From NCBI GenBank assembly GCA_003222155.1, contig QHUU01000067.1, positions 1 through 38,296 of the forward strand: a stretch of 38,296 bases of DNA, in the 5' to 3' direction. The notes below the pieces were generated by a model. It saw only the letters and a list, made by a program, of their open reading frames with translations, was not told the origin of the DNA and made no database searches. The stretch comes from Gemmatimonadota bacterium. Lineage in GTDB: Bacteria; Gemmatimonadota; Gemmatimonadetes; Gemmatimonadales; GWC2-71-9. Positions 979 through 5,094 of this stretch are shown here, one piece after another. The translations under genes and the position numbers were made by a program. Positions within the stretch are counted from its first letter, which is position 1. The number at the start of each line of letters is the position of its first letter.

Positions 979-1006
979 AATATACCCGGCTGTTCGAACC
1001 GGTCAA
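979..1006 (-). promoter_or_regulatory. gltB: Sigma-70-like promoter for the gltB leader
   Basis: On the minus strand TTGACC (complement of 1001-1006), a 16-nt spacer and TATATT (complement of 979-984) form a good vegetative promoter within an AT-rich patch that stands out against its GC-rich surroundings. The -35 box overlaps the stop codon of the upstream PEP-mutase-family gene. Transcription would start near 970, giving an untranslated leader of about 220 nt. Confidence 0.6.
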
Positions 1007-1839
1007 GGGGTCCGCTCCACCAGCCGCTGCACCTCCCCGAAGGGAATGAGCAGCTCCGTCATGGTGTCGTACGTACCCCGCTCCCGCAACTCGGTTACCA
1101 GGCGTCGCACCAGCCCCAGTGTTGCTTGTACGACCCGCGGGCCGAGGCTCGCCCGCCGCACCCCCAACCGCTCGAGCTCCGGGAGGGGCGGGGCCGGGGG
1201 GCCCGCGATCACGTTGAGGGGCCCTGCGAGCTCCCTGGCGAGGCGCCCGATCGTCTCGCCGTCGCTCACGTGCGGCACGAACAGGCAGTCGGCCCCGGCG
1301 GCCAGGTAGCCGTTGGCCCGCCGCACCGCCGCCGTAAAGCGCTCCGCCGGCGACCAGCGTCTCACTGCGAACGCATCGGTGCGTGCATTGACCACGAGCG
1401 GCACCCGCGCCGTCGTCGCCGCCGCCCGGACGGCCCGGATGCGGTCCGCCTGAAGCTCGGGATCGAGCAGCGTGTCTTCGTTCGTGCCGTCTTCGAGGTT
1501 CAGCCCGACGGCGCCGGCCGCGATCACGCCACGCGCCGTCTCGGCGGCCGCCGCGACCGTGACGCCGTAGCCCCCCTCCACGTCGGCCGTCACCGGCACG
1601 CGCACGGCGGCGACGATGCGCCGGATCGCCGCGAGCATCTCTCCCCGGCTGATGCGCTCACCATCGGCGTAGCCGAGCGACCACGCGATGCCGGCGCTGG
1701 TGGTGGCGATGGCCGGAAACCCGGCTTCTTCCACCAATCGGGCGCTCGCCACATCCCACGCATTCGGGAGCACCAGCATACGCGGTCCCGTATGGAGCTG
1801 CCGGAACGTTTCCGCCTGCTCGCGTGGACTGGCCTTCAT
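1003..1839 (-). CDS. PEP mutase / isocitrate lyase superfamily protein
   Basis: A 278-residue single-domain TIM-barrel protein of the PEP mutase/isocitrate lyase superfamily. Known members are 2-methylisocitrate lyases, oxaloacetate decarboxylases and carboxyvinyl-carboxyphosphonate mutases, all acting on C-C or P-C bonds next to an enolate. The N-terminal VLPNAWDVASARLVEEAG (residues 23-40), the metal-site region VTADVEGGYG (83-92, with Asp86 and Glu88) and LNLEDG (113-118) are typical. The KKCG-type active-site loop of true isocitrate and methylisocitrate lyases is not apparent, so the substrate cannot be fixed. The start at 1837-1839 is preceded by GGAGG; longer readings to 1986 lack such a site. 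It lies upstream of gltB on the same strand, but gltB has its own promoter. The exact reaction remains open. Confidence 0.85.
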   Translation of the reverse strand: MKASPREQAETFRQLHTGPRMLVLPNAWDVASARLVEEAGFPAIATTSAGIAWSLGYADGERISRGEMLAAIRRIVAAVRVPVTADVEGGYGVTVAAAAETARGVIAAGAVGLNLEDGTNEDTLLDPELQADRIRAVRAAATTARVPLVVNARTDAFAVRRWSPAERFTAAVRRANGYLAAGADCLFVPHVSDGETIGRLARELAGPLNVIAGPPAPPLPELERLGVRRASLGPRVVQATLGLVRRLVTELRERGTYDTMTELLIPFGEVQRLVERTP

Positions 1840-2039: not shown

Positions 2040-2822
2040 ATGAAGAATGTGACGCTGGTTGCGCTGGCGCTGTCGTTCGCGCTTGCCGCTTGCTCTGATT
2101 CCAATACTGGCACGGTGAGCTTCTCGCTCACGTCCCGTCAAGCTGCGGCCCCGGCGCCGGGCGCTTCCTTCTCGAGCGTCGCCGCCGCGGCGAGCGTCGC
2201 CGCCGCGGGAGACAGCACCGTCATTGTCCTGGGCAGCGACACGGTCATCGTCCGCAGCGCCCAGCTCGTGTTGCGCAAGGTCGAGCTCAAGCGCTCGGAC
2301 GTCGCGTCCTGCGATGCGGTCGTCGGGAACGGCGACTGCGAAGAGTTCGAGACCGGCGCCACGCTCGTGACGCTGCCGCTCGGCAGCGCGATGATCGCGC
2401 AGCAGGTGTCGGTCGCCGCGCCGGCTGGCACGTTCAACGCGGTGGAGTTCGAGATCCACAAGCCCAGCTCGAGCGAGGACGCGTCGTTCATTGCGGCCAA
2501 CCCCGACTTTGCGGCAATCTCGATCCGCGTGACGGGCACGTACAGTCAGGCGGGCACGCGCAGCGGCTTCACCTATACGTCCGACATCAACCAGAGCCAG
2601 GAGACGATGCTGCCTTCGCCGGCGACGGTCCAGGAGGGGCAGGGCCTGAACATCACCCTGCGCGTCGACATCTCGGGCTGGTATCTGAACGCCGCCAAGA
2701 CGGCGCTGGTCGATCCCGCGTCGGCGAACAAGGGCGGCGCGAACGAGAGCGTCGTGGCGAACAATATCCAGAACTCCTTCAAGGCGTTCGAAGACGACAA
2801 CCACGACGGTCTCGAAGGCTGA
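2040..2822 (+). CDS. Putative exported lipoprotein of unknown function
   Basis: A 260-residue protein with a lipoprotein signal: MKNVTLVALALSFALAACSD, the Cys at residue 18 being the expected acylated residue. The low-complexity stretch AAAPAPGASFSSVAAAASVAAAG follows the signal and is partly encoded by a tandem GCGTCGCCGCCGCGG repeat. The mature region is probably beta-rich. Its middle part (SAQLVLRKVELKR, later FNAVEFEIHKP and RVTGTYS) recalls DUF4382-type surface lipoproteins, but this is only a resemblance. The C-terminus ends in FEDDNHDGLEG, an acidic calcium-loop-like motif. The start is fixed by GGAGGAGGAAGT directly before ATG 2040. It is divergent from the PEP-mutase-family gene and followed by the long hairpin at 2841-2895, which may end its transcript. 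Confidence 0.7.
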   Translation: MKNVTLVALALSFALAACSDSNTGTVSFSLTSRQAAAPAPGASFSSVAAAASVAAAGDSTVIVLGSDTVIVRSAQLVLRKVELKRSDVASCDAVVGNGDCEEFETGATLVTLPLGSAMIAQQVSVAAPAGTFNAVEFEIHKPSSSEDASFIAANPDFAAISIRVTGTYSQAGTRSGFTYTSDINQSQETMLPSPATVQEGQGLNITLRVDISGWYLNAAKTALVDPASANKGGANESVVANNIQNSFKAFEDDNHDGLEG

Positions 2823-2840
2823 GGCCTGCTGAGTAGGCAC

Positions 2841-2895
2841 GGTGGCCACCCGCGGCTAAGTTTGGGACACCCAAACTAGCCGCTCGGTGGCCACC
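2841..2895 (+). repeat. Long hairpin abutting the peptidase start codon
   Basis: Two 26-nt arms (2841-2866 and 2870-2895) are complementary except for a small bulge and mismatch region, with a 3-nt ACA loop. Each arm carries GGTGGCCACC, itself a perfect palindrome, and the inner stem is GTTTGGG/CCCAAAC. The 3' arm ends at the base before ATG 2896, so the structure occupies the whole ribosome-binding region of the peptidase gene. No U-tract follows. It may end the upstream transcript, regulate translation of the next gene, or both. Confidence 0.7.
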
Positions 2896-5094
2896 ATGGT
2901 TTTCCGCACGATCCGCCGTTTCGCTGCCTGCGCCGCTTTCCTCGCCCCGCAGCCGCTCGTCGCCCAGAGCACGCCGGCCCCGCCGCTCGCGGTCCACGCC
3001 ATCTGGGGCTCCCGCGAGTTCGCGAGCGATCTGGTAGAGCTCTCCTGGATGAAGGACGGCAAGGCCTACACGAACGTCGAGCCCGACGCCTCCGGCAACA
3101 CGGATCTGTATCGGGTCGACGCCGTCACGGGGGCAAGGCAGCTGCTGGTGCACGGCGTCGACCTGGTGCCGCCCGGCAGTCGTGGCCCCGTCGCCATCGA
3201 AGAGTACCGCTTCTCGGACGACGGCTCGAAGCTCCTTGTGTTCACCAATTCGGTCCGCGTCTGGCGCCAGAACACCAAGGGAACGTTTTTCGTGTGGGAC
3301 CTGACCGCCCGGCGATTGCTTCCGGTGAGCGCGAAGCCCGGCTACCAGCAGTTCGCCAAGTTCTCGCCCGACGGCCGGCGCGTGGCGTTCGTGCGCGACA
3401 ACAACATCTACGTGACCGACCTCGCGAGCGGCGCCGAGGCCGCGCTCACCGCGGACGGCGGCGACAACGTGATCAACGGCACGTCCGACTGGGTGTACGA
3501 GGAGGAGCTCGACCTGCGCGACGCGTTCCGGTGGAGCCCGGACGGCAGCCGTATCGCGTTCTGGCGGCTGGACCAGAGCGCGATCCGACCCTTCTACCTG
3601 CAGGATTTCGACTCGCTGTACGCGCCGCTCGTGCCGGTGCACTACCCAAAGAGCGGCACGCCCAACTCCGAACTGAAGATCGGTGTCGTGGACGTGGGCA
3701 GCGGGCACACGTCGTGGATCGACCTCGGCCCGGACAGGGACGTCTACGTCGCCGCGATGGACTTCGCCGGCTCGGCGGACGAGATCTGGCTCACCCGGCT
3801 CAACCGTCATCAGAACCGTCTCGACCTCCTGCTGGCGGATGCTCGTACCGGCGCGTCACGTGTGATCATGACCGACAGCGACTCCGCGTGGGTCGACGCC
3901 AACCAGCCTCACTGGATCGCCGGGGGCAAACAATTCCTGTTCCTCTCGGAGCGGGACGGCTACGACCAGGTCTATCTGTTCAATCGCGACGGATCGCTGG
4001 TCCGGCGTGTGACACCGGGCGGGTGGGACGTGTTCGAGCTGGTCGGCGTGGACGAGCAGGCCAAGGTGCTGTATTGCACCGCCGCCATCGACGGTCCGCT
4101 CACCCGGCCGCTGCTCCGGGTCGGTCTCGACGGGAAGGGACTGGCACGGGTCTCGACCGAGCCGGGGACGCACGCCGTCGAGTTCGCCCCGACGTTCACG
4201 CTGTACGTCGACACCTATTCGCGGGCCGGTGTCCCTCCCGTTCAGACGCTGCGGCGGGCGAACGGCACCCTGGTGCGCACCGTCGCCGACAACGCGAAGC
4301 TCGCGGCCAAGGTGACGGCGCTGGGTCTCAACCGGCCCGAGTTCATCACGATCCCGACGGCCGATGGCGTGCAGCTCAATGCCTGGGTGATCAAGCCGAA
4401 GGGATTCGATGCGTCGCGGCGCTATCCCCTGCTCATGAACGTGTACGGCGGGCCGGGCTCGCAGACGGTGACCGACTCCTGGGGCGGCCCCAACTACCTG
4501 TGGCACCAGCTGCTCGCGCAGGACGGCTATCTGGTCGCGAGCGTGGACAATCGCGGCACCGGGGGCCGCGGGGCGCGGTTCATGAAGATCACCTACCTGC
4601 ATCTCGGGCGGTACGAGTCGGCCGACCAGATCGCCGCGGCGCGTTGGTTCGCCACGCAGGGCTACGTGAACCCCGATCGCATCGGCATCTGGGGCTGGAG
4701 CTACGGGGGCTACATGGCGTCGCGCAGCATGTTTCTCGGCGCGGGCGTGTTCAAGGCCGCACTCGTGGTGGCGCCCGTGACCGACTGGCGCTTCTACGAC
4801 ACGATCTACACCGAGCGCTACATGCGCACGCCCACGGAGAATGCGTCGGGGTATGACGAGAGCTCCTCGCTCGCGTACGCGGACAGCTTGAGGGGCAGCC
4901 TGCTCCTGGTGCACGGGACCGGCGACGACAACGTGCATTTTCAGAACAGCGTGCGGCTGGTGGAACGGCTCGAGGGCGCCAACAAGCAGTTCGACATGCG
5001 CATCTATCCCAACAAGACACACGCGATCGCGGGCGGCAACACGCGGGAGAACCTGTACGGCCTGTTTACGGCGTGGCTGAAGAGCCATCTGTAG
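2896..5094 (+). CDS. Dipeptidyl peptidase IV-type S9 serine peptidase, exported
   Basis: A 732-residue prolyl-oligopeptidase-family enzyme that removes dipeptides from the N-terminus of peptides, commonly after Pro or Ala. Residues 1-24 form a signal peptide ending in LVAQ, so it acts in the periplasm or outside the cell. A beta-propeller fills about residues 40-480 and contains the DPP-IV double-Glu motif in WVYEEELDLRDAFRWSPDG (Glu202-204), which binds the substrate amino terminus. The alpha/beta-hydrolase domain carries the triad: Ser602 in GWSYGGYMAS, Asp677 or 678 in GTGDDNVHF, and His709 in KTHAIAGG. ATG 2896 is used because it starts the signal peptide; an in-frame GTG at 2887 is also possible. 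There is no free Shine-Dalgarno sequence because the preceding hairpin occupies that site. The MFS gene overlaps its end, suggesting peptide breakdown coupled to transport. Confidence 0.93.
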   Translation: MVFRTIRRFAACAAFLAPQPLVAQSTPAPPLAVHAIWGSREFASDLVELSWMKDGKAYTNVEPDASGNTDLYRVDAVTGARQLLVHGVDLVPPGSRGPVAIEEYRFSDDGSKLLVFTNSVRVWRQNTKGTFFVWDLTARRLLPVSAKPGYQQFAKFSPDGRRVAFVRDNNIYVTDLASGAEAALTADGGDNVINGTSDWVYEEELDLRDAFRWSPDGSRIAFWRLDQSAIRPFYLQDFDSLYAPLVPVHYPKSGTPNSELKIGVVDVGSGHTSWIDLGPDRDVYVAAMDFAGSADEIWLTRLNRHQNRLDLLLADARTGASRVIMTDSDSAWVDANQPHWIAGGKQFLFLSERDGYDQVYLFNRDGSLVRRVTPGGWDVFELVGVDEQAKVLYCTAAIDGPLTRPLLRVGLDGKGLARVSTEPGTHAVEFAPTFTLYVDTYSRAGVPPVQTLRRANGTLVRTVADNAKLAAKVTALGLNRPEFITIPTADGVQLNAWVIKPKGFDASRRYPLLMNVYGGPGSQTVTDSWGGPNYLWHQLLAQDGYLVASVDNRGTGGRGARFMKITYLHLGRYESADQIAAARWFATQGYVNPDRIGIWGWSYGGYMASRSMFLGAGVFKAALVVAPVTDWRFYDTIYTERYMRTPTENASGYDESSSLAYADSLRGSLLLVHGTGDDNVHFQNSVRLVERLEGANKQFDMRIYPNKTHAIAGGNTRENLYGLFTAWLKSHL

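Follow-up and report, generated by a model that had tools for sequence, protein, structure and literature searches.

A conserved inverted repeat before a Gemmatimonadota S9 peptidase gene is probably a pair of mirror-image promoters

Sequence and predicted fold of the inverted repeat

What is the role of a long inverted repeat that ends exactly at the start codon of a peptidase gene? The question is raised by a 38,296-nucleotide stretch of Gemmatimonadota DNA (hereafter the window), in which a dyad occupies positions 2841–2895, between the stop codon of a predicted lipoprotein gene (2040–2822, plus strand; recognized by eye, with no Pfam family at E 0.001) and the ATG at 2896 of an S9 DPP-IV-type peptidase gene (2896–5094, plus strand; DPPIV_N and Peptidase_S9, with an N-terminal signal peptide by eye). 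Translation of the peptidase might alternatively begin at an in-frame GTG (2887). A reading frame for an MFS transporter overlaps the end of the peptidase gene (window 5073–5094), so the two probably form one operon. On the other side of the lipoprotein gene lies a PEP_mutase-family gene (PEPM; 1003–1839, minus strand), which is the divergent partner of the peptidase gene in relatives; here the lipoprotein gene is placed between them.

The outer ends of the dyad are formed by the palindrome GGTGGCCACC, present at 2841–2850 and again at 2886–2895, where it abuts the ATG. The inner arms GCGGCTAAGTTTGGG and CCCAAACTAGCCGC flank an ACA loop at 2867–2869. Sequence and fold prediction agree on this inverted repeat, as described in the initial annotation; the complementarity of its two 26-nt arms was confirmed and refined to 24 Watson-Crick pairs, one mismatch and two single-base gaps, and the predicted fold contains 10 + 7 + 7 pairs. 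The minimum free energy of the segment 2800–2930 is −66 kcal/mol, compared with −47.5 kcal/mol (SD 3.75) in shuffled sequences (n = 200). This corresponds to a z-score of −4.95 in the 131-nt context, with 0 of 200 shuffles equally stable, and the initial view that chance cannot account for so long and so precisely placed a repeat is borne out. For the 62 nt preceding the peptidase ATG, the z-score is −6.7. Set beside the most stable window of each of 266 intergenic regions (798 kb of the genome), the fold of 2838–2897 (−45.9 kcal/mol) would take 4th place (a rank obtained by comparison; the scan step skipped the best window at the dyad), and random 60-mers (n = 4000) had a mean of −21.2 kcal/mol, an SD of 5.6 and a lowest value of −53.3 kcal/mol. 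Since similarly strong hairpins occur elsewhere in the genome, it is the position and conservation of the dyad that are telling, not its strength.

A 70-mer search of the own assembly (3.45 Mb in 130 contigs, 95% complete) returned the query itself and 8 matches of 14–20 bases with E 0.39 or worse. The dyad is thus single copy in its genome, and a dispersed repeat of the REP/REPIN type was ruled out. Among 102 family genomes, the exact core motif was found at the peptidase gene only: TARGTTTG-N6-9-CAAACYTA occurs in 6 of the 102, at one place each and in 6 of 6 directly before the peptidase. The exact 21-base core gave 0 matches in viral contigs.

Conservation of the dyad in related genomes

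The dyad is conserved at the same place in related genomes. The comparison set consisted of 17 genomes, namely G000–G009 from the same genus, G024 and G070–G073 from genus g16, and G074 and G075. Sixteen of them were taken from 30 fetched peptidase loci (a peptidase match at E ≤ 1e-100 was obtained in 88 of the 102 family genomes), and G006, which carries the dyad without an intact peptidase behind it, was added through a DNA search. In G006 (L017, 1693 onward), what comes after the dyad and its ATG is not the peptidase but a frame of 19 codons that ends with TAG, either a deletion remnant or an assembly join. The upstream regions of 42 loci, which include some genomes twice, were inspected by eye, and no such dyad was seen in those whose homologues are more distant (identity of about 64% or lower). 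In the peptidase tree of 21 rows (G003 was omitted as incomplete, and G006 has no peptidase), G002, G005 and G007 are grouped at 100/100; the deeper fork is without such resolution.

A candidate promoter of the peptidase gene in the 5′ arm

Promoter signals were calibrated on 798 kb of the 3.45-Mb assembly with our own simple gene caller (686 genes, starts not curated), using the 285 upstream regions in which the gap measures 60 nt or more. The motif TANNNT peaks 11–16 nt before the start (44 sense versus 10 antisense occurrences), and the narrower TANNTT is found there 29 times in sense and 0 times in antisense orientation; at 31–45 nt before the start the TANNTT counts are 15 and 4. By these counts TANNTT behaves as the −10 promoter box of this genome, and the peak at 11–16 nt is, as far as motif positions tell, the mark of leaderless genes. 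The local consensus is about TA(G/A/T)NTT(T/G), and TAAGTT at 2857–2862 fits it. The Bacteroidetes-type −10 box is TAnnTTTG; this type was set aside, the genome's own signal being TANNTT.

The 5′ arm would then be the −10 region of the peptidase promoter, with a putative box TAAGTT(TG) at 2857–2864 on the plus strand. With the exception of G074, every genome of the set (16 of 17, own included) carries a sense TANNTT (TAAGTT, TAGGTT or TAGTTT) between −33 and −44. Fourteen of the 16 have no other sense TANNNT in the 75 nt before the start codon, and G073 and G070 carry a second one at −67/−68. A sense TANNNT 11–16 nt before the peptidase start codon was found in 0 of the 17 genomes, and the arms are conserved; the relatives thus do not display the combination of a leaderless mRNA starting at 2896 and unconserved arms that the initial annotation had named as contrary to its view. 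The sense TANNTT at a fixed place is one feature of a primary-sigma promoter. The other, a TTGACA-type −35 element, was found at 0 sites 16–18 bp upstream of the forward −10 box, and only a weak −35-like hexamer, TAGGCA (2834–2839, plus strand; by eye), lies 17 bp before it. The hexamers at the same spacing, also by eye, are TTCGCA in G073, CTCGCA in G024 and G071, and CTTCCA in G003. The 5′ copy of GGTGGCCACC falls within the spacer between the −35 and −10 positions.

The predicted transcription start of the peptidase gene is at 2869 on the plus strand, 12 nt after the T of TAAGTT, as 12 nt is the commonest distance from box to start codon among leaderless-type genes and the same spacing was assumed here. 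The peptidase promoter would therefore resemble the leaderless-type TANNTT promoters of this genome in its −10 box and, by that assumption, in its spacing, and it differs from them in that the box lies 39 nt from the ATG, which gives a predicted leader of ~27 nt where leaderless-type genes have none. Because the recurrent sense −10 box lies in the 5′ arm, the transcript is predicted to begin in the loop (~2869) with only the 3′ arm in the mRNA, and this disfavours the RNA switch that had been suggested for this hairpin. The sequence GCCAYC (window 2890–2898) directly precedes the start codon in most of the 17 genomes, with the exception of G001 and G009; four genomes with a poor opposite outer arm (G002, G005, G007 and G074) keep it as well.

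The 3′ arm and the divergent PEPM gene

The 3′ arm would be the −10 region of a left-facing promoter that drives the divergent PEPM gene where this gene is adjacent. The reverse box in the window is TAGTTT (2873–2878, minus strand), and the same spacing rule places the predicted reverse start at 2866 on the minus strand. A minus-strand TANNTT within the 3′ arm is present in 9 of the 17 genomes, as TAAGTTT or TAGGTTT in eight relatives and as TAGTTT, shifted by one base, in G000. PEPM is directly divergent in nine genomes (G001, G003, G009, G024 and G070–G074), 63–140 bp from the peptidase start as counted to the first aligned PEPM residue. Seven of these nine contain the reverse box, which is missing in G024 and G074. 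Five of the seven have no other reverse TANNNT in the gap; a second is present in G001 and G071. The remaining eight genomes include two with the box, G000 and G004, both with the lipoprotein gene in between; it is absent from G006 (lipoprotein gene in between), G008 (PEPM 172 bp away), and G002, G005, G007 and G075 (no PEPM in the upstream DNA searched). Adjacency of PEPM is thus accompanied by the reverse box in 7/9 versus 2/8 genomes (Fisher p 0.057, 17 genomes), and comparison of the nine PEPM-adjacent genomes with the four without PEPM upstream gives p 0.021; as the rows are related, both values are descriptive. In G003, the 63-bp gap between PEPM and peptidase genes holds one TANNNT per strand, both inside the dyad. 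G009 and G070 have kept both boxes with weak folds (z −0.8 and −1.5), and G074, in which PEPM is adjacent, has neither box. A broken PEPM gene as the reason for the loss of the reverse box in G024 was ruled out, as the frame is intact and its TGA is the terminal stop. The 3′ copy of GGTGGCCACC is the counterpart of the PEPM promoter spacer in relatives.

The genomes in which PEPM is located elsewhere are informative about the single arms. In G002 the gene is on the same contig at a distance of about 75 kb, and in G007 it is found on another contig, where it is cut by the contig end. In both, the PEPM upstream region consists of GTGGCCGCCGAGCGGTAAGTTTGGGTGTCC, followed by the ribosome site and the ATG, and GTGGCCGCCGAGCGGTAAGTTTGGGTGTCC represents the 3′ arm in PEPM orientation without a complementary arm. 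The peptidase genes of the same two genomes retain TAGGTTT, and their 3′ arm is without the reverse box. This distribution indicates that each arm goes with its own gene. No PEPM match was found in G005, a genome that is about 80% complete.

PEPM is separated from the dyad by the lipoprotein gene in G000, G004 and G006 (partly aligned in G006). In the window, the left-facing half of the dyad would now at most produce antisense RNA to the lipoprotein gene. No TANNNT was found within 110 nt before PEPM in G000, G004, G006 and G008, so PEPM in these genomes may use another kind of promoter. By eye, G008 retains DNA like the lipoprotein upstream region but not the lipoprotein gene. Upstream of PEPM, the window contains an inverted CACGTGAG...CTCACATG at 1910–1932, with similar sequence in G006 and G008, and five PEPM homologues of genus g27 have TTTGACTCC...TAAGATAC near their start.

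Taken together, we consider it probable on these sequence comparisons that the dyad consists of two similar, mirror-image promoters that meet at their start sites. What is directly observed are the boxes with their positions and conservation and the lone arm upstream of PEPM located elsewhere; from these we infer transcription from both promoters and its start sites. The predicted starts lie in or beside the loop, 2–3 bp apart, so the polymerase sites would overlap and binding should be mutually exclusive. A mirror-image promoter pair explains the position and conservation of the dyad and the case of PEPM located elsewhere, and it leaves two features unaccounted for, the length of the outer symmetry and the persistence of the dyad in three genomes without a reverse box.

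Pairing of the arms and alternative explanations

Evidence that pairing of the arms is important beyond the two promoters is mixed, and the arms may have an operator or structural role in addition. Cognate arms pair with −29.6 kcal/mol compared with −25.3 kcal/mol for swapped arms (17 genomes, p 5e-5); for the 9 genomes with outer arms the p value is 0.053, and with one genome per close group it is 0.051 (6 genomes) or 1e-4 (12 genomes). In the named structure 74% of cells pair, compared with at most 43.5% in slid versions, and 74% was reached by 21 of 500 shuffles; the true pairing exceeds all six slid versions in both cells paired and covariation score. The level of cells changed on both sides was reached by 5 of 500 shuffles. 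Both-side changes are present in 6 of 18 pairs, a count reached by 45 of 500 shuffles, as was the covariation score; further pair types were reached by 307. As regards the compensatory changes in relatives that the initial annotation had made its check, these results point both ways, and no common structure was predicted by RNAalifold. On the plus strand, G-U outnumber A-C mismatches 26 to 10, several of them common to related genomes. The fold z-score is −2.9 or below in 11 of the 17 genomes and above −2 in six (G002, G005, G009, G070, G074 and G075). Strong hairpins without a reverse box are found in G006 (z −5.7), G008 (−5.0) and G024 (−5.9), the last with an adjacent and intact PEPM. G001 has no outer arms, those of G002, G005, G007 and G009 are poor, and the stretch between palindrome and −10 box varies by eye.

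Among other explanations of the symmetry, an operator survives best, and we still regard it as unlikely. A dimeric regulator would bind the dyad or its two GGTGGCCACC palindromes and block or activate the promoter or promoters, so that the symmetry would be that of a protein site over a −10 box. Two identical palindromes do frame the promoter, the exact GGTGGCCACC is more frequent per kb between genes (3 in 67 kb, including the two of the dyad, versus 1 in 731 kb of coding DNA), and the strong dyads that persist in G006, G008 and G024 would be expected of such a site. However, intergenic DNA shows no enrichment of the palindrome once one mismatch is allowed (7 in 67 kb versus 89 in 731 kb), the layout was not seen at a second site in the own genome or, by exact patterns, in the 102 family genomes, and the outer arms and the stretch from palindrome to box are as variable as described above. 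The one other exact intergenic GGTGGCCACC in 798 kb (C57:16072) is without the dyad layout; it precedes a reading frame that by eye resembles a response regulator. Of the functions initially suggested, a site acting at the DNA level comes nearest to the data, but its conserved units resemble facing promoters rather than operators.

A structured RNA is somewhat less probable still. The hairpin would be transcribed from an upstream promoter and would control translation of the peptidase by holding the start region. The stable folds in 11 genomes, the better pairing of cognate arms and of the true register, and the excess of G-U over A-C are all consistent with such an RNA. They are opposed by the recurrent sense −10 box inside the 5′ arm, by the mere 63 bp between PEPM and peptidase starts in G003, by the weak folds of six genomes, and by the shuffle counts and the RNAalifold result given above; moreover, 0 matches at the gathering score were obtained with Rfam covariance models in the window. 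Overall, a DNA element is better supported than an RNA hairpin.

We attach little weight to template switching as the whole explanation, in which replication copies one arm onto the other and the pairing has no function beyond the two promoters. As described in PMC8794818, template switching can create matched arm changes in one event, and the matched differences between the arms of different genomes are of the kind that such a process can make. It is an adequate non-functional source of matched arms; it is inseparable from selection with 17 sequences, and it accounts for upkeep of the symmetry but not for the conserved −10 boxes. A terminator of the lipoprotein transcript, an initial suggestion in keeping with the start of the dyad 18 nt past the lipoprotein stop codon, can practically be dismissed, as no terminator-like site (a stem followed by a T run) is found at the dyad and relatives without the lipoprotein gene carry the dyad beside the divergent gene.

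Comparison with known bidirectional promoters

If the mirror-image promoter pair is correct, a striking hairpin before a gene can be a by-product of two facing promoters and as such a trap for the annotation of regulatory RNAs, and the genomes compared here would constitute a natural experiment on divergent gene pairs that share, lose or split a promoter. More tentatively, and with reservations that incline us slightly against it, such elements may form a class in which one promoter is present twice, head to head, with starts that nearly touch, and the polymerase chooses the direction. Splitting an element of this class at its centre could give two promoters, just as joining two promoters could build one, and its symmetry would perhaps be renewed by template switching between the arms. 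A search of titles and abstract openings in a limited library returned nothing describing facing, separate −10 boxes, and no transcription-start study of Gemmatimonadota was among the titles listed.

The closest known systems are the bidirectional promoters of Escherichia coli and Salmonella (Warman et al. 2026, PMC12825309; Middlemiss et al. 2023, PMC10268837). According to these two papers, divergent transcripts start from a single short stretch of DNA by virtue of its symmetry, and polymerase bound one way blocks binding the other way. At the five promoters tested, basal activity did not suffice for real competition between the two directions. Of those in E. coli, 24% are situated between divergent genes and give rise to two mRNAs. 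Both directions share the −10 element, and the starts are mostly 18 bp apart, with 10 and 23 bp common and other distances possible. The dyad resembles this description in being a short symmetric stretch with putative divergent transcripts. It differs in that its boxes (2857–2862 and 2873–2878) are separate, face each other and lie 10 bp apart, in that the starts predicted by the spacing rule (2866 and 2869) would be only 2–3 bp apart, and in a symmetry of up to 26 bp per arm. Its geometry would thus be unlike the shared −10 arrangement as these sources portray it and, since the dyad lacks that feature while presumably working like a bidirectional promoter, it would represent a variant arrangement.
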